IMG/VR virus record: IMGVR_UViG_3300031608_001091
Location: 1 to 50,241 of that record
Length of the DNA: 50,241 bases
DNA from: a virus
Reading direction: 5' to 3' (one strand)
The notes beneath the pieces were generated by a model that did not search any database, had not been told where the DNA came from, and saw only the letters and a list, made by a program, of their open reading frames with translations. The translations under genes were made by a program, and so were the position numbers. Shown here in pieces: positions 2,185-30,618 of this stretch (within the stretch, counting starts at the first letter, position 1; every line of letters starts with the position of its first letter).

Positions 2185-2189
2185 GCAAT

Positions 2190-5294: not shown

Positions 5295-6188
5295 TTAGGT
5301 CAAAGTCTTAATTAACCCGTCTTTGAGACTTGTGAATTCATAATCACCAACCAAAGACAGTAACTTAGAAACATCGGCGCATCTTCTGGAAACACTTCCA
5401 GCGGGTGCGTTTTTGTATGTGGGTTCTCTATCAACCTCTACAATCTCTCTTATAATCTTAGCAACATCTCCGATTGAGGATTCTATTGGATTGCCAATGT
5501 GAATTGTGTCATTCACTAATTTTTCACCAACTTTAAGAGTTAGTTCAGCGGCGTCATCAATATATATAAACGCACGAGTTTCATCGTGACCATATAACAC
5601 ATTGTCACCTTCTCTTAATCGGTCAGCGTATTCTGGAATAAAATGATTCTTCTGTTCTTTACCATATGCATTATGATACCTAATGATTACATAATCTAAA
5701 TTATATTCTTCGTGTGCGGCATGTACCGCAATCTCTCCCATGAGTTTACTACCGGCATAACTCCATCGTGTGTTATCTATCTCGTTGATTATACCTATAT
5801 TGATTTCTGGTGTTGGTATTTCTGTAATACCTAGTTGTACCCCACCTGCGTATATCTCACTACTACTCGCATATACAAACTTTGTTTTTGAATACTTATA
5901 TCTATGAATTAGATTGATAGTTGGAGTCATAGTGCTATCTATAACAGACAATGGTTTTGTATAGAAGTGTGCAGTATTATTATACGCACACAAATGATAT
6001 ACTATATCTGCTTCTGGTAAAAACGTAACTGATTCTGTGTTTGTTAAATCACATGTGTCAAACGTGTGTCCGTATGTGTTAGCAGGCTCACGTATATCAG
6101 TCAACCGAACATCATGCTCACTGTTCTCTAGTTGTTTTGCTAATGCTTGGCCAATAAATCCAGCGGCACCAGTGATTAGTATTTTCAT
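5295..6188 (-). CDS. NAD-dependent sugar-nucleotide epimerase/dehydratase (extended SDR)
   Basis: 297 residues, the usual size for this family. The Rossmann motif is GAAGFIG (7-13); the catalytic set is Ser109/Ser110 in ASSSEIY and the YxxxK pair Tyr144 and Lys148 in YAGSK. It acts on nucleotide-activated sugars by transient oxidation at C4, giving epimerisation, dehydration or decarboxylation; which one cannot be decided from the motifs. It is the last gene of the 24-gene minus-strand run, and its ATG overlaps the stop of the upstream dehydrogenase (ATGA). A dehydrogenase plus SDR pair is typical of uronic acid or pentose nucleotide synthesis, as in UDP-glucuronate to UDP-xylose. Confidence 0.85.
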   Translation of the reverse strand: MKILITGAAGFIGQALAKQLENSEHDVRLTDIREPANTYGHTFDTCDLTNTESVTFLPEADIVYHLCAYNNTAHFYTKPLSVIDSTMTPTINLIHRYKYSKTKFVYASSSEIYAGGVQLGITEIPTPEINIGIINEIDNTRWSYAGSKLMGEIAVHAAHEEYNLDYVIIRYHNAYGKEQKNHFIPEYADRLREGDNVLYGHDETRAFIYIDDAAELTLKVGEKLVNDTIHIGNPIESSIGDVAKIIREIVEVDREPTYKNAPAGSVSRRCADVSKLLSLVGDYEFTSLKDGLIKTLT

Positions 6189-6976
6189 TTTCTCATACCT
6201 TTGAATACTGTTTTCTTAAACAGTTTGTTTTCTTTATCAATATACTCAAATAATTTATTTGGTATTCCTAATTTCTTACATGCATGGTTCATTGCTAATA
6301 CATCTTTAGGTAAACACGCACCGCCGTAGCCTCGCAGTTCTGGCTTGACATCTAAGTACTCGTCTGGTAAATCAGTATTGCGTAAGAACGCCTCTTTAAT
6401 TTTGTCATAATCAGCATCCATTTTGTCGCTTATCTCAAACATCACATTAGAGAATACTACACGCAACGCATTGAACGTGTTATGATAGTACTTCATTAGT
6501 TCTGCTTCTGTTGGTGAGACTCTCATAATATCTTCTGGAAGTTTACCATGTGAACGCTGTACTAGATAATAATAGTTTACATTGTCTGTTCCAACTAGTA
6601 ACAACTTGTGGTCAAATATAAAGTCATACTCTGCACTACGTTCTTTTAAAAATTCAGGCACAAATACAATTCTATCATCGTATTGCTTAATCAATCTTTC
6701 AGTTGTTCCTGGTTCTACAGTTGACTTGATACCTATAACGCCCTCGTAGTCTGCTTGTCGTAGTTCGGCAATGACACTTTCTACGATGCTTGTGTCACAT
6801 TCACCTTTGTTATTTGTGGGAGTTGGCACACATAGATAAACAATCTCTGCGTCCAGTAAGTCTTCTATTTTTGTGTCAAGTGTAATGTCATGTGGTATAA
6901 CTGTATACCCACAATGCTCAAAGCCAGTCTTACATGCTTTGCCTACTACGCCTAATCCTATTAATCCTATTTTCAT
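6185..6976 (-). CDS. UDP-glucose/GDP-mannose dehydrogenase family protein lacking the C-terminal domain
   Basis: 263 residues from the ATG at 6976. That start overlaps the upstream stop as ATGA and follows AGGAT at a good distance; an ATG three codons earlier is badly placed. NAD motif GLIGLGVVG (4-12); PTP turn at 51-53; ELMKYYHNTF (159-168) with Lys162 and Asn166; catalytic Cys221 in GYGGACLPKD. The protein ends about 40 residues after the catalytic motif, so the third (sugar-nucleotide binding) domain of normal 400-residue enzymes is missing. The three-domain paralogue at 2238-3470 is complete. The enzyme may be active as a minimal form or use another protein for that domain. It sits in the sugar operon next to the epimerase. 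Confidence 0.8.
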   Translation of the reverse strand: MKIGLIGLGVVGKACKTGFEHCGYTVIPHDITLDTKIEDLLDAEIVYLCVPTPTNNKGECDTSIVESVIAELRQADYEGVIGIKSTVEPGTTERLIKQYDDRIVFVPEFLKERSAEYDFIFDHKLLLVGTDNVNYYYLVQRSHGKLPEDIMRVSPTEAELMKYYHNTFNALRVVFSNVMFEISDKMDADYDKIKEAFLRNTDLPDEYLDVKPELRGYGGACLPKDVLAMNHACKKLGIPNKLFEYIDKENKLFKKTVFKGMRK

Positions 6977-7707
6977 TCTATCCATCCTAGTTCTTGTAAT
7001 TTAGGCATAAGTTTTTTACGAGTGAATCCGAGATAGCCTTCATCTGTGGGGTGATTGGTATCATTGATATCATGTCCATTTATTATAGACCATTCACACA
7101 TAGAATCTTCAATGTAATCTATATCTTTGTTCTTTAAAAACTTCATCACATTTTGTTTTTCAATATCTGACTCAAAAATTCCATTCCATCCAAACAACAC
7201 AAGTAGTTTGGTATTTTCTCTCTTAATTCCATTAAGTTGCCATAATACCTGATATACGTTGATTCTTGATTCTTTGATATTCGAAGATGGCATTTGACGA
7301 AGATGGGACTTTACTGACAACTCACATCCTTCAATTCTTATCTCTGGATTAAAAACATGGTCAACATCAAGATATCCATCATCCCGGCTTAAACGTCCAT
7401 CACTGTCTGTTGGAAGATTGATGGTATCATATATATTTCTGGTACTAACTATTCTTCTCTCTGGATTAGTTATTTGCCAGATTATGATATCATCTTTAAC
7501 TATGTGATTATAGTGGACTTCATTGGCATATTGAATTAGTTGCATATCATTTGACCCACTAGTGACGGCATAACTCTGTAACTCTACCTCATCATTTACA
7601 TGTATTCTATCTCGTGAACTCATAGTGTCCGGTCTATCATCAGTAAACATATATCTCCAATGATGTCCTGCCGTTAAACTACAACCAAATGCGTGTATTT
7701 TTTTCAT
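6973..7707 (-). CDS. SGNH-type hydrolase-like protein
   Basis: 244 residues from the ATG at 7707, which overlaps the upstream stop (ATGA). Block I of the SGNH fold is FGCSLTAG with nucleophile Ser10; SGSND (about 50-54) matches the oxyanion-loop region with Asn; and near the C-terminus DTNHPTDEGY supplies the Asp216-x-x-His219 pair. SGNH proteins remove or transfer acyl groups on sugars and peptides. It is one of three in the run (also 13218 and 15374), which differ strongly from one another. No signal peptide is seen, so action is cytoplasmic. Substrate unknown. Confidence 0.65.
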   Translation of the reverse strand: MKKIHAFGCSLTAGHHWRYMFTDDRPDTMSSRDRIHVNDEVELQSYAVTSGSNDMQLIQYANEVHYNHIVKDDIIIWQITNPERRIVSTRNIYDTINLPTDSDGRLSRDDGYLDVDHVFNPEIRIEGCELSVKSHLRQMPSSNIKESRINVYQVLWQLNGIKRENTKLLVLFGWNGIFESDIEKQNVMKFLKNKDIDYIEDSMCEWSIINGHDINDTNHPTDEGYLGFTRKKLMPKLQELGWIE

Positions 7708-8225
7708 TCTGTTTTCCATTTAACACTGCAACCAAATGATGGGTTTGGTTCCCAATTAATTGACTTGCCTGCTAATGTTAAATCTAATGCATGACGTAGA
7801 CTGCTACCAGTTGGCATCAAATCATTACTTGTATGACTTGGGTCTAGTTCACCATGATATACAATAGTATCATCTTCATCAATAACATAAAACTCTGGAG
7901 TACAAACTGCGCCATATGCCTTTGCTATGCTTTGGTCTTCATCAAATATATAACCACATGCTAATCCATACTTGTTCACAAACTCTTCCATGAATTCTGG
8001 TGCATCTTCTGGACTACTATCGTCTGTTGTTGGACTTGCATCGTTGCTGTTCACTGCGACACAATGTACTCTTTTATTATATTCTTTTATTATCTTTGAT
8101 ATTGCTGGCATCCTAAACAAGACATAAGGACAATGATTACAAATAATCATTACTAGTCTTACTCCCTTAACATCGTCAATTGGATGTGCCTTCTTCCCTA
8201 TCATATTCTCACTTGTCATTAACAT
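7704..8225 (-). CDS. Thioredoxin-fold redox protein (peroxiredoxin-like, CNHCPYV family)
   Basis: 173 residues from the ATG at 8225, which overlaps the previous stop as TAATG and has GAGG eight bases upstream; an upstream in-frame ATG at 8255 lies inside the previous gene. The active-site motif CNHCPYV (Cys29, Cys32), VAVNSND (57-62), DEDQSIAKAYGAVCTPEFYVID (95-116) and the terminal GCSVKWK (165-171) are the full signature of a bacterial thioredoxin-family/AhpC-TSA-like group. It has no signal peptide. It may keep thiols or iron-sulfur enzymes of the pathway reduced, or protect against peroxide; the context of six radical SAM enzymes makes a redox-partner role conceivable but unproven. Confidence 0.8.
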   Translation of the reverse strand: MLMTSENMIGKKAHPIDDVKGVRLVMIICNHCPYVLFRMPAISKIIKEYNKRVHCVAVNSNDASPTTDDSSPEDAPEFMEEFVNKYGLACGYIFDEDQSIAKAYGAVCTPEFYVIDEDDTIVYHGELDPSHTSNDLMPTGSSLRHALDLTLAGKSINWEPNPSFGCSVKWKTE

Positions 8226-8989
8226 TAAGATAACCTCACTATCGAAATCGCACAATCATCTATTTCTTGTGTGTATACAAATTTGTCTTCAAAGAACGCA
8301 TCTACGACTTCATGTACACCAGAAAACATATTATAATCATCTATATGTATTACTCCACCTACGGGTATCAAGTCCCATATATGTTCTAGTGTATGTTTGG
8401 TTGGTGTCGCAATATCCATATCTAATCGTATAAAAGATATTTGTTCTGGTAATATCGCAGGTATCGTATCTATAACTGAGCCTTTAACATACGTCACTTT
8501 CTCATTTACAATATCTTTTATTGTTTCATCACTGCAATGTATTAGTTCTTTAGATATTATTAAAACATTCTGTTTAACTTCGTCTAAATCACAGTAACAC
8601 CATTTATCATCGAAATATCTACTTTCTACACTCTCTCCGGGACCTTCACTATTCATTATTATGTGAGTGTCATTCTCTATTAATTCGTTTTTAGGTACAC
8701 CAGAAAATGTGTCATATGCCCAGAAAGAACGATTTATATCTAAGGCATTCATTTCAGAGACAGTTAATGCTATATTACCACCCATATATACCCCACATTC
8801 AACGAAGTCTCCTGGTATATTCTTCTTCTTAATGTATCTGATAGCCTCTAATATTGCATTCATCCGTGATGTACTCATTGTAGATATAGAAGATACCCCC
8901 ATCATCTTTTCGATATCACTTTTTGTCCAATTTGAGCGATAATTGTTTTTGATTTCGCTATATATTTCTTTGTAAACAAAGTCGTTCAT
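8225..8989 (-). CDS. TylF/MycF-type macrocin O-methyltransferase-like protein
   Basis: 254 residues. The family pattern is clear: an N-terminal helix with TMSTSRM (37-43), the SAM-binding GDFVECGVYMGG (60-71), AYDTFSGVP (91-99) and the metal-binding region IRLDMDIATPTKHTLEH (187-203) followed by GGVIHIDDY (211-219). Members use magnesium and SAM to methylate a sugar hydroxyl, classically on macrolide deoxysugars, and phage and polysaccharide clusters also carry them. The ATG overlaps the upstream stop (TGATG). It is paired with the C-methyltransferase next door, which supports synthesis of a methylated sugar. Confidence 0.85.
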   Translation of the reverse strand: MNDFVYKEIYSEIKNNYRSNWTKSDIEKMMGVSSISTMSTSRMNAILEAIRYIKKKNIPGDFVECGVYMGGNIALTVSEMNALDINRSFWAYDTFSGVPKNELIENDTHIIMNSEGPGESVESRYFDDKWCYCDLDEVKQNVLIISKELIHCSDETIKDIVNEKVTYVKGSVIDTIPAILPEQISFIRLDMDIATPTKHTLEHIWDLIPVGGVIHIDDYNMFSGVHEVVDAFFEDKFVYTQEIDDCAISIVRLS

Positions 8990-10182
8990 CAGCCTATCAC
9001 CTCAAATTCTGGTGTACAGAATACAAGTTTACCGCCATCTGCAATCCAGTCTTTTAAAATTCTTGTGACGAACAATTCTTTGAAGTGAAATGGAAATACT
9101 AAGAAGTAATCTGCCTTCTCTTTTGCTTCGTCTTCATGTACAATAGGAATACTACTACCAACTAGATACTTACCAATCTTATCTGGATGTATCTCTGCCG
9201 CACCACTAATCACATCATTATCTAGTCCATAGTATTGCATGATTGTATTACCCTTTGTACTAGCACCCATGATATAAACTTTCTTTCCGTCTTCTACTTC
9301 AGAACGTAAGAAGTTCATGGTCTTGTCTCTGTTCTTATCGATGTTTGTTTTCCAATCAGTGTATCGTTCTACTGAACAATTCTCTTCGTACTCACAACTG
9401 CCTTCATTCAAGTGCTGAATATATAACTGATAACTTCCGCCGTTAATGTCGTTCTCACGCACTTGGTATATCTCAAGTCCATTGCGTTCTAATAAGTTCA
9501 CTAGTGCTTTGTATGAATAGTATTCTAAATGTTCGTGTATGACATTGCCTAGGTCGTTAGTGTCAAGCATTGGTCGAGCAGTCATTAACTGGCATACCCA
9601 TACTCCACTCTCGTCTAGTATGCGTTTGATGTCTTGTACAAATGAGTTTGGATTATCTAGGTCATAGAACATAGCAACAGTTGTTACAATCTTTGCTTTC
9701 TGCTCACCCATCTTCTCTTCCCAATTCTTCTTGTTGAAGAAGTCACCTATCATAATATCGCAATTGTCTTTTAGTTCGTTGTGTATATTCTGTGCTGGGT
9801 CTATGCCTACTCTAGTTACATTATCAGGATAAAAACTCAACAACGTGCCATCATTTGCACCAATGTCAACTACGATATCATTGTCATGTAATTCTACTTC
9901 ATACGAAGCATCTACTGTGATACTCTCTAAGTTATCAACAATCTTTTTGTTTAACCTAGACAAGTACCAGTAGTTCTTATATAAGTCTTCTTCTCTCACG
10001 GTGTGTGTTAATTGCACTAAGTCGCACTCGTTACAATGAACTAATGCAAGTGGCGCCGAACCAACATCAAGATTTGGTTCTTCGACAAACGCATTGATTT
10101 TCAAATCTCCAATATCAAACACGGTAGTGAGTTCTTTGTTCCCACAACTTCTACATTCTTCAATCTGTTTTATCTTTGCCAT
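8989..10182 (-). CDS. Zinc-binding sugar C-methyltransferase-like protein (TylCIII/NovU type)
   Basis: 397 residues, typical length. The N-terminal zinc module has Cys10, Cys13, Cys50 and Cys53 (CRSC and CNEC). The SAM domain has VVDIGANDGTLL (104-115). The C-terminal Rossmann-like domain includes YIMGASTKGNTIMQY (about 298-312), typical of Methyltransf_13/14 architecture. Well-studied relatives methylate C3 of 4-keto-6-deoxy nucleotide sugars. This fits with the adjacent aminotransferase, cupin and epimerase genes. Stop and start overlap on both sides, so it is firmly inside the operon. Confidence 0.85.
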   Translation of the reverse strand: MAKIKQIEECRSCGNKELTTVFDIGDLKINAFVEEPNLDVGSAPLALVHCNECDLVQLTHTVREEDLYKNYWYLSRLNKKIVDNLESITVDASYEVELHDNDIVVDIGANDGTLLSFYPDNVTRVGIDPAQNIHNELKDNCDIMIGDFFNKKNWEEKMGEQKAKIVTTVAMFYDLDNPNSFVQDIKRILDESGVWVCQLMTARPMLDTNDLGNVIHEHLEYYSYKALVNLLERNGLEIYQVRENDINGGSYQLYIQHLNEGSCEYEENCSVERYTDWKTNIDKNRDKTMNFLRSEVEDGKKVYIMGASTKGNTIMQYYGLDNDVISGAAEIHPDKIGKYLVGSSIPIVHEDEAKEKADYFLVFPFHFKELFVTRILKDWIADGGKLVFCTPEFEVIG

Positions 10183-10787
10183 TATAAATCCTTTATGTAA
10201 CTGATGTCGGGATACGTATATGACCCTGCAACATCTTCGTTAACTACTTTATTTTTAATAAAGTTCTCAAGTCCCATCTCAGCAGTTTCGGGTGTCATAA
10301 ACATATGATAACCTAAAACTTGCATCTTGTCTTCTTCATAAGGCACACTCATGTCTCTCCCGTCATGCACTGCAAGTTGCGCCCAATCATAGAAATCTTT
10401 ATCATCAGTTAAAATCATACCACCTTTAATAGTACTTAGTATCTTTTTGAATTGAAAACTCAGGCACTGATAAGTTCCTTCAATGTACATATCTTTTGTA
10501 AATCTAGGAGCACCATCCACAATGTTTGTAGGTTCAATAGGATAAACTCCTTTCCATTCTTTATCAATAAACTCTACATTAAATCCCGCATGTATCATTT
10601 GCATTGGCGCACTGACATATGTATTCTTTGGTACCTTAACCGTACAAGTTCCATGTATCTTCTTATAGTATATAGCACTTAAAAATATAGCATGGCTACA
10701 ACAATCAGTTGCAATGCCATATGGAGCATTAGCGTAATTAGCCACCACTCTTTCAAACTTATGTACTGTGTCGAATGGAGTTACCAT
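10182..10787 (-). CDS. Short DegT/DnrJ/EryC1/StrS-type aminotransferase-like protein
   Basis: 201 residues, against about 370 for normal sugar aminotransferases. The large-domain landmarks are present: an N-terminal helix ending YGIATDCCSHAIFLSA, KVPKNTYVSAPMQMIHAGF (51-69), the cofactor-contacting NIVDGAP (88-94) and SFQFKKILSTIKGGM (110-124), in which Lys115 aligns with the lysine that binds pyridoxal phosphate. The small C-terminal domain is largely missing. No frameshift is seen: the ORF is closed by genes on both sides. It may be a minimal active enzyme, or a binding-only relative. Full members transfer an amino group to a keto nucleotide sugar. Confidence 0.7.
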   Translation of the reverse strand: MVTPFDTVHKFERVVANYANAPYGIATDCCSHAIFLSAIYYKKIHGTCTVKVPKNTYVSAPMQMIHAGFNVEFIDKEWKGVYPIEPTNIVDGAPRFTKDMYIEGTYQCLSFQFKKILSTIKGGMILTDDKDFYDWAQLAVHDGRDMSVPYEEDKMQVLGYHMFMTPETAEMGLENFIKNKVVNEDVAGSYTYPDISYIKDL

Positions 10788-11629
10788 GTGATGTCCAATA
10801 AATTTGCCCTGTGTGTATTTTGGTATCTGCCACTAACAATGTTCGCAAATGGAATATCTGCGTATCGTTTGTCCACGCTGTCATATTTTTCTAGCCAGTT
10901 ATAAAATTCATTACTTTTGTATAGTTTCTTTCGTATTGAATTTCTAAAATTAAATAGCGGTCCAACACGGTCAACATCTTGAATGTCTAATTCGCTAGGG
11001 TCATCGTTCTGCGCCCAGGCATCTTGAAAACTTTTTCCAACTCTACATTCGTCATACAGATATACGTCTGCGTGGAGAAATTTTCTCTCTTGTAATATTG
11101 CATGTTTTTCTTCATCGGTGAGAATTATAGTATACTTTGGAGTATCGGTCCATGTGTGGTAACCGAATATCATATCACTACTAAATTTATCATCTTCTTC
11201 ATATTCCATATAATTTGGAGTAGGTAATGTGGATTCGTAGTCATGTACTCCTTGATTGATATATTGTAGGTCTTCCATGTTATATTCAGATGGTTTTTCA
11301 CCCCAGTTCATACATTCCATAGTAAACTGTCTGTGTAATATATTACAATCTTGCACTGTCAGTGTATCACTTAGTGATACATTAGGTTCAATACCAGTCA
11401 GTGCAAAGCCTTTACGTATTGATGTTAATGCTTCTAGTCTGACAGAGTGAGATATATGTTCTAGATGCTTCATCGAGCGTCCCGCTTGATGTGAAAGGAT
11501 TCGCTGAAAAAGTTCAACTTCATCTGCTTTACAGGTCTCGCATAGTTCAAGTATTTTTTTGCTTATCGATGTATCAAATACATCAAGTGTTAGTACTTCA
11601 CCATTATCAAATTTAAATTTCATTTCCAT
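10781..11629 (-). CDS. Unknown protein in the sugar-modification operon
   Basis: 282 residues, not recognised. It begins with a short beta-rich segment (MEMKFKFDNGEVLTLDVFD), then a helical region with three cysteine codons near residues 30-33 (LCETCK) and many acidic residues, and ends in a basic and aromatic stretch. No signal peptide, membrane helix, P-loop or Rossmann motif is seen. The start has GGTAG upstream and overlaps the cupin gene; the end overlaps the aminotransferase start. Position between a ketoisomerase-like cupin and an aminotransferase suggests a role in the same sugar pathway or in recognising the target, but this is only context. Confidence 0.7.
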   Translation of the reverse strand: MEMKFKFDNGEVLTLDVFDTSISKKILELCETCKADEVELFQRILSHQAGRSMKHLEHISHSVRLEALTSIRKGFALTGIEPNVSLSDTLTVQDCNILHRQFTMECMNWGEKPSEYNMEDLQYINQGVHDYESTLPTPNYMEYEEDDKFSSDMIFGYHTWTDTPKYTIILTDEEKHAILQERKFLHADVYLYDECRVGKSFQDAWAQNDDPSELDIQDVDRVGPLFNFRNSIRKKLYKSNEFYNWLEKYDSVDKRYADIPFANIVSGRYQNTHRANLLDITW

Positions 11630-12017
11630 CTTTATCTACCTTTATAATAGGAGCATTACATTTATCCCAATGTTTTGTTAACATACTAACGAAAGAGTAA
11701 TCTTCTAATGCTCGAAACTTATGTGATGTGTTGATAGGTATACGAATGCTGTCACCCACTTTCAACGTAATAGTTATGTCTTCATCGTTAGAAATAAACT
11801 CTGTGTACTCGCATCTGCCTGAGACTACCATCATGTACTCGTTAAACTCGGGATGATAATGATATCCTCTTTCATCACCTTTCTTTGTGACCATAAGATT
11901 GTATTCCGTTAAGTTATCATCAATAGGAAAACTAAAGATTGTTCCACGACTATCTTCAAATATATCAGCAGATACTATCTCTGTTTTACTATCATCTTTA
12001 ATTTTATTGTATCTCAT
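11613..12017 (-). CDS. Cupin protein, sugar 3,4-ketoisomerase/3,5-epimerase-like
   Basis: 134 residues, single cupin domain. Motif 1 is Gly51 to Gly67 with His53, His55 and Glu60 (GYHYHPEFNE), and motif 2 has Gly88, Pro94 and His99 (GDSIRIPINTSHKF); together they give a full metal-binding set. The N-terminal DSRGTIFSF resembles the FdtA/WxcM and RmlC-like sugar isomerases. Such enzymes shift a keto group on a dTDP-linked sugar before amination, which fits the following aminotransferase gene two positions downstream. A generic metal cupin cannot be excluded. Confidence 0.7.
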   Translation of the reverse strand: MRYNKIKDDSKTEIVSADIFEDSRGTIFSFPIDDNLTEYNLMVTKKGDERGYHYHPEFNEYMMVVSGRCEYTEFISNDEDITITLKVGDSIRIPINTSHKFRALEDYSFVSMLTKHWDKCNAPIIKVDKDGNEI

Positions 12018-13224
12018 TATCTAACCAATTATAAACGTCATCGAAGTACGATTTTGTTATTTCTTTGAACTCTTTACTAAAGTATCTTTTCTTATTATAC
12101 ACTAATCTGTCTTTTAATTCAAGTGTTTTTACGGCTAATTGTTCGGGCGTTAGTTTGTTAATCACTTCCATCTGTTCGATTACCATCTCTGCTCGTTTGA
12201 ACATGTCTTCTTCTAAGTCATAACTATTATCAAATACATCATCAAAAGTATCAAATCCCCATTCTCTGAGAACTTCTAAAGTTCTCGGTTGCCCTATTAT
12301 CATAAATGGATGCATAAACACAATTGCTTTAAATATAACTTCTGATATATAACATCCGGGACCAATCGCACTACTCTCGGTTAGAACACTCATAAAAGAA
12401 TTCTGATAGAAAGATGCTGAACTCCAAACTGTATCATCATAGAAGCATCCATTTTGTTGAAAGTCTTCTACGTCTAGTACTAGAGGCAACTCGTTCATGA
12501 ATTCGTTCGCTTCTGTTCTCAACTTTTCACTATCAACAAGATTATACTTATCATATATATCTTTGTGTTCTCTTTTGTCTGCGACAATCCATTCTATGTG
12601 TTCTTCAAATGTTTCGCCGTCCATCATTTTAGCACAACTAATTAGATTATTATCTAGCATTCCCAACTCACGTATACGCAACAAGAAGTACATTCTGTGT
12701 GGTTTATGTATTCTATTAAAACTCAGAAACGTATGGTCAAATGTTCTTTGGTCTATAAGTTCTTCTGGTATATCATATATCTCTTCCCAATAGAAATGAT
12801 TCCATCCAGGAACAAAGAACGTTTTAATATTAGATGTATTGTTTTCTGGTGCAAAAAAGTCACCAGATGCCCAGCATACGTTATGTGTATCAGCGCCCGC
12901 TGTTTCTAATTTATCATTGATGTTTATATTCTCGTGGTAAAAGAAGTTACCCTCGCCACATATTGGTTCCTGAACTGTGCTAATTATAACTCTAGTGTTA
13001 TTTGGAATTAGTTTAACTATGCTGCCATCTTTAACACATTCTATACCAGTGTTTCCCAATTCTTGTGAGATGTTTGGTTCATAAATTAATTTATTGCTGT
13101 CTGTAAATTTTATATCTTGGCTGAAAGAAAGATTAAAATAATCGAAGTTAAAATTGAGATGGCGCCACCACTGCGAGTCTCCTATATCTTTGAAATGCAA
13201 ATGATTTAGATTTACTTTTAACAT
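12004..13224 (-). CDS. Glycosyltransferase with fucosyltransferase-like C-terminal region (second copy)
   Basis: 406 residues. The C-terminal half shows the same pattern as the gene at 775-2184: SFMSVLTESS, then a glycine-containing segment and ISEVIFKAIVFMHPFMIIG, REWGFDTFDDVFDNSYD, and a final helical tail. The N-terminal half has FFVPGWNHFYW and SFNRIHKPHR, the latter common in phage glycosyltransferases of this class. It would transfer the sugar built by neighbouring genes. Its ATG overlaps the upstream SGNH stop by seven bases. Donor and acceptor are unknown. Confidence 0.65.
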   Translation of the reverse strand: MLKVNLNHLHFKDIGDSQWWRHLNFNFDYFNLSFSQDIKFTDSNKLIYEPNISQELGNTGIECVKDGSIVKLIPNNTRVIISTVQEPICGEGNFFYHENININDKLETAGADTHNVCWASGDFFAPENNTSNIKTFFVPGWNHFYWEEIYDIPEELIDQRTFDHTFLSFNRIHKPHRMYFLLRIRELGMLDNNLISCAKMMDGETFEEHIEWIVADKREHKDIYDKYNLVDSEKLRTEANEFMNELPLVLDVEDFQQNGCFYDDTVWSSASFYQNSFMSVLTESSAIGPGCYISEVIFKAIVFMHPFMIIGQPRTLEVLREWGFDTFDDVFDNSYDLEEDMFKRAEMVIEQMEVINKLTPEQLAVKTLELKDRLVYNKKRYFSKEFKEITKSYFDDVYNWLDNEIQ

Positions 13225-19502: not shown

Positions 19503-19506
19503 TTCT

Positions 19507-21042: not shown

Positions 21043-22441
21043 TGCCTGCCTCTATTTTAAATACCCTAGTTGGAGCCAAACCATTATACCAATCTACCAT
21101 AATTGGGTCAAATGTTGACATAAAATCTTTGCCACGTCTCTTATCATACTGTGTATAGAATGACTTGAAATCTCCTTGGCGCTTTTTTAATAATTCTTCT
21201 GAGTGTGGATTATTTATTGTTTTCTGTAAAAGAGAGATAAGACGTGTTACATGAACGTCTTCTACATCTACCAATTCATTGCCTCTTCTATCATACCATG
21301 CTTGTAATTTTTCATGGTAGTGTTCTAGTATATATGTAGGCAATGTAGAGATACTTTGAAACTCAGGATTATATACAGGGTTCAACGACAGAAATGGTCC
21401 AACATCATCTGAAACTCTTAGGTCTAACATATCATCCATAAACTCTGTTATCGAACAAAGACACAATGCATTGATAGTCATCATTATGTACATCCTACTC
21501 AACTTTGGTTGTGCTAATAGTCTTTGACAATTGTGTAACCACTTGTCATAATCAATTCCATCTCGAATATATTCTGCTTGAAGTCCCGTTGCTTCACAAC
21601 TTGTGAACATTTCAAAGCCAGGAACATAGTCAATCACATCCAATAATCGTTGAAAAGTCTTTTCTTTCTCTGGAACAAGATTTGAGTTGATAGCGAATCT
21701 CATATTTTTTCCACGTTCTGGATTTTCTTTAAACCAATCGAACAATTTCCAAACACTAGGATGCATGATGGGTTCGCCACCAGTTATTCGAATGCCCTCT
21801 AGTGTATCTGCTAATCCCCCATCTGCTTCCCACCATTCCCAAAATGCAGAAATATATGGATTGTCTTCATCTGTTTTACCTGCACTTATTGTCCAGTCAG
21901 CAGTGTTAGAAAAGTGTTCTCTTTCATCTGAAATAATATGCTCGTATGGTCCACTTTCTTTAATATCTTTGACCCATGTAGAACTAAATGATGGATTACA
22001 ATACGAACATGCAAAGTTACAGGCCTTATCAAAAGATATTTCAAGTGTTCGTAGAAACGTGTCATCATCCCACTTCTTTAGTGGTATGTCTTCTAAGTCT
22101 TCATCAGTGTACATACGTGTCTTTAGTACTCTGTCAGAAATCTTTTCTGGTCCCTCATCTTCAACTGCCCAGCACTTATAACACTCTGATGGTCTCTCAC
22201 CCTCAAGCATCATCTTACGCATCTTCTTCTTATGCAAAGTATTATGAATAGCAGTAGGATTGTCTTTGAGTTCTTCTGTAGGAATTTTATGTGAAGCGGG
22301 CAGATGACAACTAACTGTCTCTCCGTGACCTAACCAAATAGTTGCGTTATGCCATTTTGCACCACAAAAGGAAGAACTCTTCGGATCCATCACTCTTGTC
22401 TTGTAATCTAAAAATGATTCTGATGCTAGTTTTCTACTCAT
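21035..22441 (-). CDS. Twitch-type radical SAM protein, tandem paralogue 2 of 3
   Basis: 468 residues and the closest match to the gene at 19507. Cys26, Cys45, Cys87 and Cys90 form the N-terminal module; Cys141, Cys145 and Cys148 (CNFACSYC) bind the radical SAM cluster; ITGGEP follows around 219-224. The stretch HNATIWLGHGET and the basic HKKKMRKMM (about 70-78) are nearly identical in the two proteins. The conserved C-terminal phrase FYTQYDKRRGKDFMSTF closes the shared region. It overlaps the next start by eight bases and the previous stop by four (ATGA). Divergence despite conserved ligands suggests related but separate targets. Confidence 0.85.
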   Translation of the reverse strand: MSRKLASESFLDYKTRVMDPKSSSFCGAKWHNATIWLGHGETVSCHLPASHKIPTEELKDNPTAIHNTLHKKKMRKMMLEGERPSECYKCWAVEDEGPEKISDRVLKTRMYTDEDLEDIPLKKWDDDTFLRTLEISFDKACNFACSYCNPSFSSTWVKDIKESGPYEHIISDEREHFSNTADWTISAGKTDEDNPYISAFWEWWEADGGLADTLEGIRITGGEPIMHPSVWKLFDWFKENPERGKNMRFAINSNLVPEKEKTFQRLLDVIDYVPGFEMFTSCEATGLQAEYIRDGIDYDKWLHNCQRLLAQPKLSRMYIMMTINALCLCSITEFMDDMLDLRVSDDVGPFLSLNPVYNPEFQSISTLPTYILEHYHEKLQAWYDRRGNELVDVEDVHVTRLISLLQKTINNPHSEELLKKRQGDFKSFYTQYDKRRGKDFMSTFDPIMVDWYNGLAPTRVFKIEAGNG

Positions 22442-24249
22442 GGCGCATATTTTTCTTCATATTCTTCTTTTGCTTCTCGCATAAAGTCTACTAACTCAGG
22501 AAATGTTTCTGTAAAATTAAATCCACGTCTTTTATCATATTGGTTAAAGTAATCGTAGAAGCGAACCAATCTATTACTGAGTTCTTCCTCATACATTTCT
22601 CCACCTTCTTTAGCCCATGCTAGGTCTCTTTCTAACTTTAGTACTTCATAATTCTTAAAGCCGTGATATGATTTTCCATATTCTTCATCTGGCAAGACTT
22701 TTGATTTCATATATTCAATATTTTCTTGAATTACATCCAACATATCTTCGTCTGCTAACTGTATGTTAAACCAATTCGGATCCCTCATATAAGGAACATC
22801 GAACCATATTTTTTGTGCTAACACTTTATGTTTTTGTTCTACTTGATAGTCATATCCAAACTTTTCTCTTAGTGTCAGAATATAATCTAAGAATCCACCT
22901 AGACTAGGAATACTCAATAGATTAAATGTATTAATAAATGTTACACTAACTCGTGTAGTTTCTGTTAGAAGGCGGTCAACGTTAGTCATCAGTTTCTCCC
23001 AATCTAATCCATCACGAATATATTCTGCTTGTGGTCCAATGCCATCAACACTAATGAATACACTAATGTGTTTACACGTAACATTTTCAAATAGATGATT
23101 CCACTTATTCCATTCTGGGTCTTTTACATAGTTGTTCAAGTATAAAAAAGAGTTGTCTTGGTCGTCAATGCAAGGTCCTAGACCTTCGAATTTTTGTGGA
23201 ATATCTTCTGATTTGATTATATCTATATTTGGCTGAATCAACCAAGCATCAACTCCATGTAGTGTCTCTTCTACTATGTATTGTTTCCAAGTATCGAATT
23301 TACTACCGTCCTTTGGGTCCACCGCATAGAATAACACACTTCTTTTATTATCTTCTGGCTTATTGAATAACAAATCTTTGAAGTCTACTTCTTTGACTGT
23401 TGGGTCATTTTCATCAATTAATGGTTTTTCTAATCCTTGTATCTTTTCAATAAATTTGTCGAACAATGCATCGTCAGGTGGACACATATTTGTTGTCAAT
23501 GAAACTTCTAAATTCGGATTTGGATTATCTCTAATATAGTCTAATACTTTAAATGTATTTTTATCCATGAGAGGTTCGCCACCTGTCATACGAAAAATCT
23601 TTAGATTAGAGTAGATGTTTGGAAACCATTCCCAGAATGCAGTTATATATGGATTATCTTTTCGAGCAACTTCTAATGGCATCAAGCCAATTGTTTTCAA
23701 TTCTTGTATGTTATTGTGTCCACCGCCATCAGAAAAATTAAACGAACCATGTTGTTTAATATCATCTTCCCATGCAGTAGATAGATGAGGAGAACAGTAA
23801 GCACACTTGAGATTACATGCTTGATTAAAGTTAACTTCGACATATCGAGGAGCAATATCATGGTCCCATGCATTTTCTACTACTTCGTCCCATGCATCTT
23901 TAACCCACCATTCACTTGAACGATAGTGTCTATCACTCAGTTGTTCTCCAACTTCGCCCGATGAGTTTGGTGCATCTTCTACATTCCAACAGTACTGACA
24001 CCCTTTTGGTCTCTTACCACTCATCATCTGTCTACGTTCTTCTAGTTTGAATTTCGTATTATGAAGTGCGTTAGGGTTTGCTTTAAGTTCATCTAATGGA
24101 ATAGGATGCGTTGGAGGATGATAGCAACTATGTGTTCGTCCTTGTGGTAAATGCAAACTCACTTGTAACCATTTTGCCATACACATTGATGGCGATATTT
24201 TGTTTAGTTTGAGTTTGGCTACCGTTGCATCATCATCGTAGTTTGCCAT
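22438..24249 (-). CDS. Twitch-type radical SAM protein, tandem paralogue 1 of 3, with insertion
   Basis: 603 residues, longest of the three. N-terminal Cys23, Cys42, Cys84 and Cys87 (CQYCW); radical SAM Cys145, Cys149, Cys152 (CNLKCAYC); GGEP at 223-226. Compared with its paralogues it has an insertion of roughly 115 residues after LTTNMCPPDD, before FISVDGIGPQAEYIRDGLDW, including the segment SVLFYAVDPKDGSKFDTWKQ. The insertion falls inside the core barrel region and could build a substrate lid. The C-terminal FYDYFNQYDKRRGFNFTETF matches the family end. It follows the GT-A-like gene with a TAATG overlap. Confidence 0.85.
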   Translation of the reverse strand: MANYDDDATVAKLKLNKISPSMCMAKWLQVSLHLPQGRTHSCYHPPTHPIPLDELKANPNALHNTKFKLEERRQMMSGKRPKGCQYCWNVEDAPNSSGEVGEQLSDRHYRSSEWWVKDAWDEVVENAWDHDIAPRYVEVNFNQACNLKCAYCSPHLSTAWEDDIKQHGSFNFSDGGGHNNIQELKTIGLMPLEVARKDNPYITAFWEWFPNIYSNLKIFRMTGGEPLMDKNTFKVLDYIRDNPNPNLEVSLTTNMCPPDDALFDKFIEKIQGLEKPLIDENDPTVKEVDFKDLLFNKPEDNKRSVLFYAVDPKDGSKFDTWKQYIVEETLHGVDAWLIQPNIDIIKSEDIPQKFEGLGPCIDDQDNSFLYLNNYVKDPEWNKWNHLFENVTCKHISVFISVDGIGPQAEYIRDGLDWEKLMTNVDRLLTETTRVSVTFINTFNLLSIPSLGGFLDYILTLREKFGYDYQVEQKHKVLAQKIWFDVPYMRDPNWFNIQLADEDMLDVIQENIEYMKSKVLPDEEYGKSYHGFKNYEVLKLERDLAWAKEGGEMYEEELSNRLVRFYDYFNQYDKRRGFNFTETFPELVDFMREAKEEYEEKYAP

Positions 24250-25232
24250 TATCTATCCCAGCCAGTTTGCTTCTCTGTTGCAAGTGGATTATTCACTCTT
24301 GGTGGATTATTATAAGTTCTTTTCCAGTATCTTGCTAGTTCTGGCGTAGGGTCCACTATTTCCATTCCTATCTTATCAGTAAGAATATCACCAACACGTA
24401 AGCATTCATCAAACAATTTATCATAGTCCCATTCTACCCCAGTCCTAGAACACTTCTCATCGCCACCTTCGCATAATGGCAATACTTCTTCTTCGAAGTA
24501 AGTCTTGAACCAATCAAAAGAAGAGATGTTTTCTAGTTTGTAGTCTTCTACAAAGTTGACATCATAACACCCTAGTCTTGCGCCAAAGCAAGCCCATATG
24601 CCATTCTCTACATCAGCACCAATATTACACCAGGTTAATAGTCTTTCATAGTTCTTCGGCCATATTCTTTTTTGAAAGTCTTCGACTGGTACTTTATTCC
24701 CCTCGTCTAGTGCCATCTTTACACCTTCACGATATCCTGCACGAAACGCCTGAAAAGGTGAACCTGCGTTGAGTACTTGAGAGTAAATATTGTTCATTTG
24801 GATATAGTTTAGGTCCCAACAAAAGTCTACTTTCTTTGTTTCGTCTTCTGCGTTCTCATGTGTTCTCATTTCTAACACTAAGTCTACCGGCCAACATTTA
24901 ATACCGCCATTGCCGTATACTAATCCATTGACCATATTCTTAGCACTCCAACTAACAATAGAGTTTTCTAAGTCTGTGTTTGCTGGAAAAGTAATCTCTA
25001 AGTCAAAAAACTTTTCGTCAACGATGTTATCACCATCAATGGTAATAAATCTACTAGTTTCACTTTGTCTTGCACACTCTTTGTGTGCGTTATCAAATCC
25101 TTTTACTCCATCTACTCTTTTAGCAAATGGGAACTTCATTATTAGATTTGACCAATGTTCTTCTTTTGCAGGTTCATCGTAACTAATATAGAATACATCT
25201 AAGTCACCAAGAACTACTTTTGTTTCTTTCAT
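24249..25232 (-). CDS. GT-A-fold glycosyltransferase-like protein
   Basis: 327 residues from the ATG at 25232, which overlaps the upstream stop as ATGA; an ATG four codons earlier is less well placed. The N-terminal half has a nucleotide-sugar pattern: DVFYISYDEP (11-21), then FITIDGDNIVD (62-72) with the metal-binding DxD as Asp66-Gly-Asp68, and later YGNGGIKCWP, a phrase typical of GT2-like acceptor/donor loops. No membrane helix is seen. It precedes the three radical SAM paralogues and follows two GT8-like genes, so glycosyl transfer and radical chemistry are physically linked. Confidence 0.65.
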   Translation of the reverse strand: MKETKVVLGDLDVFYISYDEPAKEEHWSNLIMKFPFAKRVDGVKGFDNAHKECARQSETSRFITIDGDNIVDEKFFDLEITFPANTDLENSIVSWSAKNMVNGLVYGNGGIKCWPVDLVLEMRTHENAEDETKKVDFCWDLNYIQMNNIYSQVLNAGSPFQAFRAGYREGVKMALDEGNKVPVEDFQKRIWPKNYERLLTWCNIGADVENGIWACFGARLGCYDVNFVEDYKLENISSFDWFKTYFEEEVLPLCEGGDEKCSRTGVEWDYDKLFDECLRVGDILTDKIGMEIVDPTPELARYWKRTYNNPPRVNNPLATEKQTGWDR

Positions 25233-25801
25233 ACTTTTCTCCACGAATACTTGTCAAAATACTTCTGTGTATACACACTTATACTGTATTTATTATATAA
25301 CAAGTTAACGTGTTTTCCAGTAGATAACAATTCAGAAAATGGTATCAGTACTGTCTTAATTAGAAACTCTGGTCTATCTTTGTGTGTTATAAAGAATACG
25401 TGTTCTGATTTCCCAGCAACACTTACTAGTTGGTTAGGGTCAACCCCTATACTTTTCTTTAGTTTATCATTTGCCTCAAATAGTATTCCGTCATCTGTTA
25501 ATGAAAGAGTAATATCTGCATCATCTGATGACACTACCTTATGTAATTGATTGTCTTTGTTTCTTCGTTTGATATCAACTCTTGTTTTTATAATCTCATA
25601 CACTAATGGATTATCAGTTCTACTTACTATATAATCAGAGAATTTAAGACTGCCATCGAGGAATGGTGTAATATCTTCAATCTCAAACCATGCAAATAAA
25701 TCTTTAGTGTCTAGTATTTGGTTTGTTATCTGTGATATATTACTGAACCCATCGAAATAAACAGCACGACAAGTATCAGTTTTATGTATAAGACTTATCA
25801 T
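25229..25801 (-). CDS. Unknown protein between glycosyltransferase genes
   Basis: 190 residues, not recognised. Composition is mixed alpha/beta with hydrophobic strands, no cysteine cluster, no signal peptide. The middle region, VVSSDDADITLSLTDDGILF, reads like a beta-strand pair, and the C-terminus (NLLYNKYSISVYTQKYFDKYSW) is aromatic-rich. It overlaps both neighbours by four bases (ATGA). It resembles in size and style the small phage proteins near tail genes, so it could be an assembly or target-recognition factor. Confidence 0.65.
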   Translation of the reverse strand: MISLIHKTDTCRAVYFDGFSNISQITNQILDTKDLFAWFEIEDITPFLDGSLKFSDYIVSRTDNPLVYEIIKTRVDIKRRNKDNQLHKVVSSDDADITLSLTDDGILFEANDKLKKSIGVDPNQLVSVAGKSEHVFFITHKDRPEFLIKTVLIPFSELLSTGKHVNLLYNKYSISVYTQKYFDKYSWRKV

Positions 25802-26655
25802 AATACTGCATCCTCAAGTTGTTTAATCTTGTTACTGTCCATCCAATTCTTTTCTACATAATGGACAGGCAATGTTTGAGTGAAATTACCAATCTTAACT
25901 GATAAGTCATCACTTAATTCGCTAGTTATACTCCGTGTCCAGTTACTCTCTATTTGATTTGTTGGTACATTTTGAATCATACTTTTCATATGAACGAAAG
26001 TAGGAACATCTTTGATATCATAATCACATGTTTGTTCTTCGATATCTAATAATTGAATTGCTAACGCATATGCTACGTCCGCACTCATCCAATTCTGTCC
26101 AATTCCTTTAAGAAACTTATCAAAGTATACGTTCCAATGAACCATAATTAACTCTACCATTCTAAAGAATTCAAAAGTTAATTCTGATTTCTTAAAGTAA
26201 GTAAAGTTACTATAGATGTTTGGTAGATTTAATTGAGTGAACTTCTTTCGGTAGTAGTCACTAGTCACATCTTCGTTACGAAATGTTTTTACATTCGTGC
26301 AACACCAAACATCTTTCTTAGAAAGATAATCCCACCAGTGGTCAACGCTGTTTGTAAATATCATATCACTGTCAAGTATAATAGTTTCATCATAAGGAGT
26401 CATATGTGGATATTTCCACTTATTATGTATCTTCCACTTATCTCCTTTAGCATCGTCATTCCAAGGAATATCAACTATAGCATCAAATACTTTTTTATGC
26501 TTGGCAGTTATTAACTTCTTTGTTTCTTCGTCTACACAGACACATAAATTACTGTTCTCTTGGGTCGCTTTCAAACTAAGAGCAAGAGCATAAGACATTT
26601 CTAAGTAATCAATGTCTTCGCTGTTCTGTGCGATAGTTATATATCCTTTACTCAT
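25798..26655 (-). CDS. Glycosyltransferase family 8-like protein
   Basis: 285 residues. The N-terminal strand ITIAQNSEDIDYLEMSYALALSL and the metal-binding ILDSDMIF (93-100, Asp95-x-Asp97) fit the GT-A fold of GT8-type enzymes, which use UDP-sugars with retention. A later conserved segment, SNFTYFKKSELTFEFF, matches the paralogue at 26648 (WATVFYFKKSELAENLF). It overlaps its neighbours by eight and four bases. Target and donor unknown; the location just downstream of tail-fibre genes fits modification of fibres. Confidence 0.65.
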   Translation of the reverse strand: MSKGYITIAQNSEDIDYLEMSYALALSLKATQENSNLCVCVDEETKKLITAKHKKVFDAIVDIPWNDDAKGDKWKIHNKWKYPHMTPYDETIILDSDMIFTNSVDHWWDYLSKKDVWCCTNVKTFRNEDVTSDYYRKKFTQLNLPNIYSNFTYFKKSELTFEFFRMVELIMVHWNVYFDKFLKGIGQNWMSADVAYALAIQLLDIEEQTCDYDIKDVPTFVHMKSMIQNVPTNQIESNWTRSITSELSDDLSVKIGNFTQTLPVHYVEKNWMDSNKIKQLEDAVL

Positions 26656-27553
26656 CTATTTTCTCCAAATGAGAATGACTCGCATTAACCTTTTCTCCGT
26701 TTGATAAAAAGTCATCAATGAATCTTCCTACTGCTTTCTTATTCATAATATGTAAGTCTGTGTTAGTAAACTTCGATAAGATATGTTCTGTAATTCTTTC
26801 AGCATCTGCACAGTACATTATAATATCACCATGTGAATTTATTCTGTAAATGTCATCAAGGTCGAAACTATTGTTGAGATATTCTATTGGCAACGATGGC
26901 ACGTCAAACGCAACGCTACCATTCAGTATATGTAACGCCATTGAAAATGCAAAGTCATTTCTATATAGACTACCGCTACAGTTATATAGGTAATAATAAT
27001 ACTTATAATTATGTTTTATGTGGTTTATAATAGTGAATAAGTTTTCAGCAAGTTCTGATTTTTTAAAATAGAATACAGTTGCCCAATACATCGGAATACT
27101 AAAGTTATCAAGGTATTCTATGTTCTCTTTATGACGTTCTGATACATCTCGGTATTTACAGTTAATCATTACATCATTATCACTGTCCCATACCTGGTCT
27201 AAAACATTGTTCATAATGAAATAATCACTGTCTATTACCAGAGTTTCGTCATAGGGTGATAGAGCATACACGTCACTTCTGCCCATGTTTTTAAATGATG
27301 CGTATTCTGTTTCACGTGTTGTGTCTTTAAACAATCTTATATTGTCTGGTTGGAATACGTCTGTTACTATAACTTTATCAAAGTAACTATTAATCAAGCC
27401 TTCACTTGCTTCTAGTGTCTCTGTATTAGTTATTAGACATATTTCGTCAAATAAAGACAGACTCTTTCTGGCATAACCAGCACAGGCACATGCCTGTTGA
27501 GCGTAGTCAATGTACCCATTATTCTGGGCAAATATTATAATGCCTCGACTCAT
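26648..27553 (-). CDS. Glycosyltransferase family 8-like protein, paralogue
   Basis: 301 residues. The start GIIIFAQNNGYIDYAQQACACAGYARKSLSLFDEICLI parallels the paralogue at 25798, and the DxD is Asp108-x-Asp110 in LVIDSDYFI. The acceptor side differs clearly (region 180-250), which suggests different sugars or acceptor sites. The ATG lies one base after the stop of the preceding gene. No signal peptide or membrane segment is visible. Confidence 0.65.
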   Translation of the reverse strand: MSRGIIIFAQNNGYIDYAQQACACAGYARKSLSLFDEICLITNTETLEASEGLINSYFDKVIVTDVFQPDNIRLFKDTTRETEYASFKNMGRSDVYALSPYDETLVIDSDYFIMNNVLDQVWDSDNDVMINCKYRDVSERHKENIEYLDNFSIPMYWATVFYFKKSELAENLFTIINHIKHNYKYYYYLYNCSGSLYRNDFAFSMALHILNGSVAFDVPSLPIEYLNNSFDLDDIYRINSHGDIIMYCADAERITEHILSKFTNTDLHIMNKKAVGRFIDDFLSNGEKVNASHSHLEKIDE

Positions 27554-27554
27554 A

Positions 27555-27941
27555 TTAAATCTCTAGTACTTTTTCTATTTTACGTGAACTTCTTAATTTC
27601 TGATAGTCGTGATAGTAATCGTTCACAACTTCGAAATATAGACTTGATACTTCGTCTAGGAATTTTGATGTGTCTTCTATATGAATTGGAATTTCATTCT
27701 TATCAAGTAGAGTTATTTCTGTTTTACCACTAGAAACAACAAAGTTCATAAAAGATATGAGTGATTGGTCAACAGAGAATGAACCACCAGCAGTACTAAA
27801 ACTTAATAAGTTTTGTGTTTTAACTTTTAGATTGTTTTTGTTTAGATTGAAAGTCTTCATTGTATTAGAAAAGTTTAATGCTTTCTCTAACCGCTGTTGT
27901 GCTTCTTGTTCCTGTGATACTTCAGTTGTGTTATCGGCCAT
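27555..27941 (-). CDS. Small acidic protein of unknown function at the tail-gene/sugar-gene border
   Basis: 128 residues, not recognised. The first 20 residues are polar and acidic (TTEVSQEQEAQQRLEKAL), followed by a predicted beta region around residues 40-90 and a C-terminal helix rich in Tyr and charged residues. It has a strong ribosome binding site (AGGAGATAAATTATG) directly preceded by an 8-bp stem-loop. It is the first gene of the unbroken 24-gene run. It may be a small structural or chaperone protein; nothing in the sequence decides. Confidence 0.65.
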   Translation of the reverse strand: MADNTTEVSQEQEAQQRLEKALNFSNTMKTFNLNKNNLKVKTQNLLSFSTAGGSFSVDQSLISFMNFVVSSGKTEITLLDKNEIPIHIEDTSKFLDEVSSLYFEVVNDYYHDYQKLRSSRKIEKVLEI

Positions 27942-27951
27942 AATTTATCTC

Positions 27952-27974
27952 CTGTATTAGTGTTAATAATACAG
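27952..27974 (-). terminator. Stem-loop between tail-fibre-like gene and the 24-gene run
   Basis: CTGTATTA and TAATACAG form a perfect 8-bp stem around a 7-base loop. It lies just after the stop of the gene ending at 27997 and just before the ribosome binding site at 27941. No run of T follows on the minus strand, so it is more likely a weak attenuator or an mRNA processing/stability element than a full terminator. Confidence 0.4.
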
Positions 27975-27996
27975 TAAAATGCCCTAAAAGTCAAGT

Positions 27997-30587: not shown

Positions 30588-30618
30588 GTTTTATATCCGT
30601 CTCTTAGATTATATCTTA

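Follow-up and report, generated by a model that had tools for sequence, protein, structure and literature searches.

A tail-linked glycosyltransferase cassette and a radical SAM array in one predicted operon of an uncultured jumbo phage

The stretch of DNA analysed here, referred to as the window, comprises 50,241 nucleotides of IMG/VR record IMGVR_UViG_3300031608_001091 and is a fragment of an uncultured jumbo myovirus with a bacterial host. That the DNA belongs to a phage, as claimed earlier, is borne out by tail genes which are collinear with virion genes of phage PA5oct. ORF calls reproduce the run of 24 consecutive minus-strand genes (g24 to g1) described in the original prediction, from 27941 down to 5295, and once two starts had been corrected neighbouring genes either overlapped by 1-17 nt or lay 1 or 4 nt apart. 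The over-long start of g14 was shifted from 17717 to the ATG at 17642, while that of g4 is probably the ATG near 8225, with the ORF extending to a TTG at 8255. The shortest gene in the run encodes 128 aa, and the next gap beyond the run, between g25 and g24, is 55 nt (27942-27996). Most of the run genes are under purifying selection relative to the nearest contig, L009 (pN/pS 0.07-0.25), with values of 0.38-0.49 for g8, g11 and g16. None of the 24 proteins has a clear membrane segment, g10 being borderline, and searches for terminators and Rfam families yielded nothing convincing above chance or threshold. When gene order was compared with related viral contigs, the order of the run was found again in many of them.

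Directly upstream of the run lie the tail genes:

27997..28974, minus strand: g25, tail/virion protein, proposed acceptor (PA5oct gp360 homologue, 26%, E 2e-14)
28999..29910, minus strand: g26, tail protein alignable with g25
29928..30587, minus strand: g27, tail protein (phrog_11259; homologous to PA5oct gp357, 32%, E 5e-30)
30674..39757, minus strand: g28, giant virion structural protein (phrog_10938, E 2e-177; PA5oct gp355)
39759..44027, minus strand: g29, baseplate wedge protein (phrog_10646, E 5e-218; PA5oct gp354)
44041..44397, minus strand: g30, gp25-like baseplate wedge (phrog_43; PA5oct gp353)
30618..30642, minus strand: candidate region for a late promoter of the tail genes, upstream of g27 (TATAAATACAAT and GATAAATAT)
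27966..27994, minus strand: predicted sigma-70-type promoter of the enzyme run in the g25/g24 gap, conserved in relatives (TTGACT-17-TATTAT)

The PA5oct homologues of g30, g29, g28, g27 and g25 occur in the same order and are annotated with ESI-MS/MS notes. The run had been described as fused to the tail transcription unit, with no visible room for internal promoters and with expression probably driven by late promoters that precede the tail genes. A real tail unit does directly precede the run, but the proposed dependence on its promoters did not hold up, as the 55-nt gap before g24 contains a sigma-70-type match. Among dereplicated relatives, such a promoter with at least 10 of 12 matches is present in 36 of 63 g25/g24 gaps, mostly with a 17-nt spacer, compared with a mean of 2.7 and a maximum of 8 in shuffled gaps (200 shuffles). 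Based on this conserved match, the enzyme genes probably have a promoter for the host RNA polymerase, and late read-through would be optional. In nearly all close relatives the element GATAAATAT precedes g27 by 34-39 nt (18 nt in one), and it hardly occurs elsewhere. A late promoter for the run was tested and ranked below the gap promoter, and internal copies of TATAAATA in relatives are not proposed as promoters since they fall mostly within coding sequence. Conservation of the gap promoter makes the timing of expression directly testable.

The genes nearest the tail unit form a cassette:

27555..27941, minus strand: g24, conserved small protein encoded by the run's first gene, also in the bacterial cassette
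26648..27553, minus strand: g23, GT8-like glycosyltransferase, member of profile A4
25798..26655, minus strand: g22, GT8-like glycosyltransferase (profile A4 versus glycogenin, E 1e-6)
25229..25801, minus strand: g21, protein of unknown function encoded between the GT8-like genes and g20
24249..25244, minus strand: g20, glycosyltransferase-like protein with a putative GT-A fold (predicted structure; DGD motif)

Four glycosyltransferase-like proteins had been predicted for the run, of which g22 and g23 are supported by profile and g20 tentatively by predicted fold, the fourth (g10) having been recognised by eye only. Profile A4, which represents g22 and g23, matches glycogenin-1 at an E of about 1e-6 over profile positions 5-110; neither protein matches a Pfam family at E 0.01, and since a curated glycosyltransferase match is lacking they are termed GT8-like. 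The predicted structure of g20 (pLDDT 85.5) aligns mostly with GT-A-fold enzymes (VIA-align best Z 9.8 over 137 residues, rmsd 3.1; Foldseek E 2e-3), and D70 and D72 of its DGD motif are invariant in the alignment. We can only guess that g24 is an adaptor or chaperone; the slot of g21 is usually occupied in relatives by an unannotated ORF. At least 596 relatives of g20 are present in IMG/VR, and 80 of these viral loci were examined for gene neighbourhood. Close to g20 were GT8 genes (76/80), g24 (70/80) and g25 (65/80), and the exact order g25-g24-GT8-GT8-x-g20 was seen in 45. In a set of 18 loci, g24, g23, g22 and g20 have pairwise identities that track those of g25 (r 0.95-0.98). Searches by tblastn of 50,697 cultured-phage records gave no match to g18, g20 (two queries) or GT8 (two queries), and a plasmid search gave no match.

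Farther along the run is an array of six radical SAM proteins, in agreement with the original prediction:

22438..24249, minus strand: g19, radical SAM with internal insertion (NF033640, 308.9 bits; 16/18 loci)
21035..22441, minus strand: g18, radical SAM paralogue of g17 (NF033640, 295.1 bits; 55% identity to g17)
19507..21042, minus strand: g17, radical SAM with N-terminal twitch (NF033640, 312 bits; 18/18 loci)
17639..18886, minus strand: g15, radical SAM without N-terminal twitch (NF033640, 55.5 bits; CxxxCxxC)
16236..17642, minus strand: g14, radical SAM with N-terminal twitch (NF033640, 300.5 bits; 16/18 loci)
14092..15381, minus strand: g12, radical SAM with N-terminal twitch (NF033640, 356.7 bits)

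The closest known family is the twitch radical SAM family NF033640, whose chemistry is to our knowledge uncharacterised. Its curated cut-off of 170 bits is exceeded by five of the proteins (295-357 bits), whereas g15 falls below it. Cysteines C6, C25, C88 and C91 of the twitch, and C144, C148 and C151 of the CxxxCxxC motif, are invariant in 35 sequences. The radical SAM proteins follow g25 far less closely than the cassette does, with r only 0.27-0.62 in the same 18 loci, which were collected through g18 so that radical SAM identity is biased upward. Around g12 in viruses, g20 lies within reach in only 7 of 80 loci and GT8 in 3 of 80, and in bacteria many radical SAM arrays lack a neighbouring glycosyltransferase gene. 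A role of the radical SAM enzymes in the service of the cassette is thus not obligatory. In the cultured-phage records, g12 found only weak radical SAM matches by tblastn, mainly in KVP40-like phages.

The same parts occur in bacteria. A Bacteriovoracia-type chromosome (G059) carries g25-g24-GT8-GT8-163 aa-g20-radical SAM adjoining pheT, in a single assembly in which the element reaches the contig end. A baseplate search of bacteria with a window protein is uninformative alone and was therefore repeated with phage G131 as positive control; baseplate (phrog_10646) and terminase (phrog_2) genes were detected in the phage and not in G059. All nine g20-positive bacterial genomes encode a twitch radical SAM protein, compared with 63 of 129 overall (hypergeometric 0.0012), and the two genes are within about 5 kb of each other in seven of the nine. 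The array is common to phages and Bacteriovoracia-type chromosomes, a sharing that implies no direction of donation.

The remaining genes of the run are accessory:

18879..19502, minus strand: g16, sulfotransferase-like by motif (GRTGTTML P-loop)
15374..16243, minus strand: g13, SGNH-like, motif only
13218..14105, minus strand: g11, SGNH/GDSL hydrolase-like (PF00657, 24.3 vs 23.6 bits)
12004..13224, minus strand: g10, glycosyltransferase-like by eye (orthologues in 7/18 loci)
11613..12017, minus strand: g9, cupin (PF07883, E 1.7e-9)
10781..11629, minus strand: g8, fast-evolving, no family match (pN/pS 0.48-0.66)
10182..10787, minus strand: g7, short DegT/DnrJ aminotransferase (PF01041 in two pieces)
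8989..10182, minus strand: g6, C-methyltransferase, Methyltransf_13/14 (PF08484, E 1.3e-26; PF08421)
8225..8989, minus strand: g5, TylF-type O-methyltransferase (PF05711, E 9e-28)
7704..8225, minus strand: g4, thioredoxin/AhpC-TSA fold, start uncertain (PF08534, PF00578)
6973..7719, minus strand: g3, SGNH-like, motif only, no Pfam match
6185..6985, minus strand: g2, short UDP-sugar 6-dehydrogenase without the C-terminal UDP-binding domain (PF00984/PF03721)
5295..6188, minus strand: g1, NAD-dependent sugar-nucleotide epimerase/dehydratase (PF01370, E 1.4e-40; same position in G131)

The predicted sugar-nucleotide genes (g1, g2, g7 and g9), the two methyltransferases, the thioredoxin-fold protein and the three proteins of unknown function (g8, g21 and g24) were all recovered, with g2 scoring 142.7 bits against a cut-off of 189.8 for TIGR03026. 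Support for other calls is partial. Of the three SGNH-like proteins, g11 matches by Pfam, and g3 and g13 by motif only (GCSxTxG and a late D..H); g16 has the sulfotransferase motif but no sulfotransferase model match in Pfam, NCBIfam, PHROGs or PDB, and family and PDB searches with g10 returned nothing significant. The cluster is extended in G131, where carbamoyltransferase, aminotransferase and nucleotidyltransferase genes are also present.

The run is best explained as one operon of two modules, the tail-linked cassette and the radical SAM array with its accessory genes. Rather than the single new system first proposed, it would combine a widespread glycosyltransferase cassette with a mobile array, and the best explanation of the array and sugar-tailoring genes is that they evolve independently of the cassette and are exchanged between phages. 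Glycogenin is an enzyme that glycosylates protein, and the resemblance of g22 and g23 to it suggests that the cassette does likewise. The PA5oct homologue of g25 was detected in the virion by mass spectrometry, and g25 is proposed as the acceptor because of its linkage to the cassette. The reading we favour, with slightly less than even confidence, is that the cassette glycosylates the g25-type tail protein encoded next to it, with the second module elaborating the glycan or the protein. The two GT8-like enzymes and g20, aided by g24 and g21, would link a sugar to the tail protein and then lengthen the glycan, all in the cytoplasm and prior to tail assembly. The radical SAM proteins, together with the products of the sugar-nucleotide, methyltransferase, SGNH and probable sulfotransferase genes, may then act on the glycan or the protein. 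Transcription of the run from its own host-type promoter before g24 would allow the enzymes to precede synthesis of the tail protein. Ser/Thr content of g25 and g26 shows no excess over the PA5oct homologues, and amino-acid composition is therefore no pointer to glycosylation. The tail linkage and the glycan and radical SAM content of the run agree with the original description. Virion decoration, as originally suggested, remains plausible and is the leading hypothesis, although no modified virion has been seen.

The main rival, possible yet distinctly less probable, is remodelling of the host envelope, in which early sigma-70-type expression alters LPS or capsule sugars to block superinfection or change a receptor, and the linkage to g25 marks a host-recognition island. 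The conserved and possibly early host-type promoter fits this at least as well, GT8-type enzymes build LPS cores too without membrane segments, and GT2, PMT-like and flavin genes adjoin g20 and radical SAM genes on some bacterial chromosomes. The authors of the pelagimyophage study propose the same role for GT8 genes of the host recognition cluster (PMC7029224). Against this, no flippase, polymerase, ligase, lipid-carrier transferase or clear membrane protein was recognised in the run, and the cassette co-diverges tightly, in fixed order, with a virion gene.

It is improbable that the array mainly modifies peptides or proteins, by RiPP-like reactions or by altering virion side chains, and that glycosyl transfer plays a subordinate part. 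The predicted structure of g12 (pLDDT 89) has both peptide- and sugar-acting neighbours: anSMEcpe (Z 13.5), SkfB (12.4) and a sactipeptide maturase (12.3) are among the best, and the best PDB sequence match is 8vpo, named TigE, but the sugar-acting BlsE (12.5) and DesII (12.0) score within 1.5 of the top. No small precursor gene fits beside the radical SAM genes, where junctions overlap or leave at most 4 nt, and g25, g26 and g27 contain no cysteines, so that these proteins cannot undergo cysteine thioether chemistry. Decoration of phage DNA by the radical SAM and glycosyltransferase genes is very improbable, for while phage glycosyltransferases can act on DNA, as mentioned in PMC12619734, and a thymidylate-synthase-family gene adjoins the extended cluster in G131 and G132 (so that a lack of such genes failed as a counterargument), the tail linkage is fixed, the enzymes are glycogenin-type and no DNA-binding or base-activating gene was recognised in the run.

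PA5oct-like jumbo phages (Wroclawvirus) have tail genes collinear with those of the window, but their minus-strand unit stops at the g25 homologue, with neither cassette nor array behind it. We know of no radical SAM enzymes in mycobacteriophage virion glycosylation. Mycobacteriophages, which are different phages likened here by citation and not by sequence, carry sugars on capsid and tail subunits (Freeman 2023, as cited in PMC12619734). The pelagimyophage host recognition cluster of T4-like SAR11 phages is a variable island beside tail genes, between VrlC and gp14, with GT8 and radical SAM cassettes, and is described as non-syntenic (PMC7029224). The jumbo phage island follows the giant virion protein g28; unlike the pelagimyophage cluster, it has a fixed g25-g24-GT8-GT8-x-g20 order, a predicted promoter of its own and many more radical SAM genes. 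Twelve radical SAM genes in the T4-like environmental marine genome TARA_ERS488813_N000010 were read as Fe-S metabolism (PMC5332604), in a passage that links no glycosyltransferase cassette to them; phage records G131-G133 have 17-19 radical SAM matches each. GT8/radical-SAM islands beside phage tail genes are already known, whereas the conserved g25-g24-GT8-GT8-x-g20 architecture appears to be undescribed.

The gene order of tail protein, g24, two GT8-like enzymes and g20 provides a rule for finding such phages, and the array gives genetic access to a large family of radical SAM proteins of uncharacterised chemistry. A broader and rather doubtful proposal is that dedicated tail-protein glycosylation is widespread, with the sugar rebuilt by a large radical SAM battery that is exchanged with Bacteriovoracia-type (Bdellovibrio-like) bacteria using the same parts. 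If true, many uncultured phages would encode a built-in factory for the decoration of a tail protein in possible contact with the host, with consequences for adsorption, for host range and for how phages evade the loss of a receptor.

The 24 adjoining minus-strand genes of the original prediction were reproduced by ORF calling in the window, a complete IMG/VR record (50,241 bases; GC 36%), each overlapping the next by 1-17 nt or separated from it by no more than 4 nt once the starts of g4 and g14 had been shortened. Most of the gene labels proposed earlier were borne out by family scans, with motifs as the sole support for the sulfotransferase, two of the three SGNH proteins and g10. NF033640, an N-terminal twitch radical SAM family, accounts for five of the six radical SAM proteins; the sixth, g15, falls below its cut-off. 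The run and other features of the window are:

27941-5295, minus strand: the run, g24 down to g1, behind tail genes g30-g25
326-3868: AdoMet decarboxylase, second UDP-sugar dehydrogenase and small APS-kinase-like P-loop kinase, the last with relatives near radical SAM genes in contigs L036, L037 and L043
775-2184, minus strand: protein without assigned function, whose relatives sit within radical SAM clusters on other contigs and whose C-terminus resembles g10 in pattern
3906-5294, plus strand: FG-GAP repeat protein that bears a lipoprotein-like signal; its gene converges on g1
44535-45125, plus strand: clpP-like protease gene (PF00574, E 2e-77), opposite in strand to the surrounding tail unit

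The run is built of two modules, a cassette of fixed gene order (g24-g20) and a radical SAM array with variable sugar-tailoring genes. Pelagimyophages are already known to carry GT8 and radical SAM genes close to their tail genes (PMC7029224), and one T4-like genome to contain many radical SAM genes (PMC5332604). No published description of the fixed cassette, its promoter, spread or bacterial counterpart was found among the searchable papers, all of them open-licence. Gene order is largely common to 40 contigs found through g18. In a subset of 18 loci, the GT8-like g22 and g23, the putative GT-A-fold g20 and the radical SAM gene g17 are always present and g24 is present in 17, while g6-g11, g13 and g16 occur in 2-7, some counts being depressed by short contigs. 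A separate, g20-anchored search yielded no fewer than 596 relatives, the best 80 of which have as neighbours GT8 (76), g24 (70), g25 (65) and a twitch radical SAM gene (53), with the exact order g25-g24-GT8-GT8-x-g20 in 45. Anchoring the scan on g12 instead turns this around: its 80 loci have a mean of 4.8 radical SAM genes, and only seven contain g20. Pairwise identities of g24, g23, g22 and g20 across the 18 loci track those of g25 and g27 (r 0.95-0.98) and those of g12, g14, g17 and g19 do not (r 0.09-0.62), the pairs being non-independent and the loci chosen via g18, with g14, g19 and g12 themselves not selected for. In some phages (L176, L180, L184, L166, L163) g20 is present as two or three tandem paralogues, without a twitch radical SAM gene nearby. 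Open frames fusing two radical SAM proteins occur at L046:12783-15260 (825 aa) and G133:C1:103882-106740 (1037 aa).

Family scans identify g30 as a gp25-like wedge, g29 as a gp6-like baseplate wedge, g28 as a giant virion protein and g33 as a hub protein. The nearest cultured relatives of g29 are from the jumbo phages Munch, CBB, SCTP-2 and PA5oct (33-42% identity); related contigs reach 342 kb, and phage genomes G131-G133 have 17-19 radical SAM family matches, of which some twelve or more per genome exceed the cut-off. PA5oct has homologues of g30, g29, g28, g27 and g25 in the same order, all annotated with ESI-MS/MS, and since its tail unit stops after the g25 homologue, the enzyme genes have been added after the final tail gene. 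In one lineage (L025, L027, L030, L032), g25 homologues bear a Gly-Tyr repeat insertion, e.g. YGYGYGYGYGYG, which is possibly a modification target.

It had been proposed that expression of the run depends on late promoters of the tail genes. Close relatives have a candidate late motif, GATAAATAT, upstream of g27, accompanied in the nearest ones by TATAAATACAAT; the motif is nearly missing elsewhere. Between g25 and g24, a gap of 55 nt contains TTGACT-17-TATTAT, and 36 of 63 dereplicated upstream regions have promoter matches of at least 10/12 (200 shuffles: mean 2.7, maximum 8 regions), the spacer being 17 nt in nearly all cases and the match usually sitting 19-41 nt ahead of g24. Because this predicted promoter is conserved, dependence on the tail promoters is not supported; read-through from the tail genes may still occur.

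MAGs of Bacteriovoracaceae and Bdellovibrionales contain three chromosomal loci, each with 2-8 genes of the same subfamilies, mostly at 34-54% identity, and no tail genes. Twitch radical SAM genes occur in 63 of 129 genomes of that bacterial class, at up to 12 copies each; g20 relatives occur in nine, all of which have twitch radical SAM genes. In Bacteriovoracia-type genomes (L064-L081) the paralogues are often arrayed in alternating orientations, and no recurrent neighbour was seen. One genome, G059, has the order g25-g24-GT8-GT8-163 aa-g20-radical SAM adjoining pheT (named by eye from sequence). Baseplate and terminase profiles that match in phage G131 have no match in G059, and its locus looks acquired, since its GC drops over its length from roughly 0.47 to 0.37. 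A 168-sequence tree, built by a quick method and with some long branches, requires at least 12 supported changes between virus and bacterium; in it, g14 and g12 cluster with genes that neighbour each other in a single bacterial locus.

Similarity of the g20 model (pLDDT 85.5) to GT-A domains reaches Z 9.8 and is confined to residues 9-167. The N-terminal part of g12 matches the BtrN twitch domain by sequence. Radical SAM enzymes for proteins, peptides and sugars score close together against the g12 model (pLDDT 89), so its substrate could belong to any of these classes. Modification of the host envelope is the main alternative role for the enzymes of the run, somewhat less likely than modification of g25. 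Linkage, co-divergence, the soluble enzymes and the bacterial cassette point tentatively, at a little under even chances, to glycosylation and tailoring of g25, in which the cassette would glycosylate this tail protein and further tailoring would then follow.
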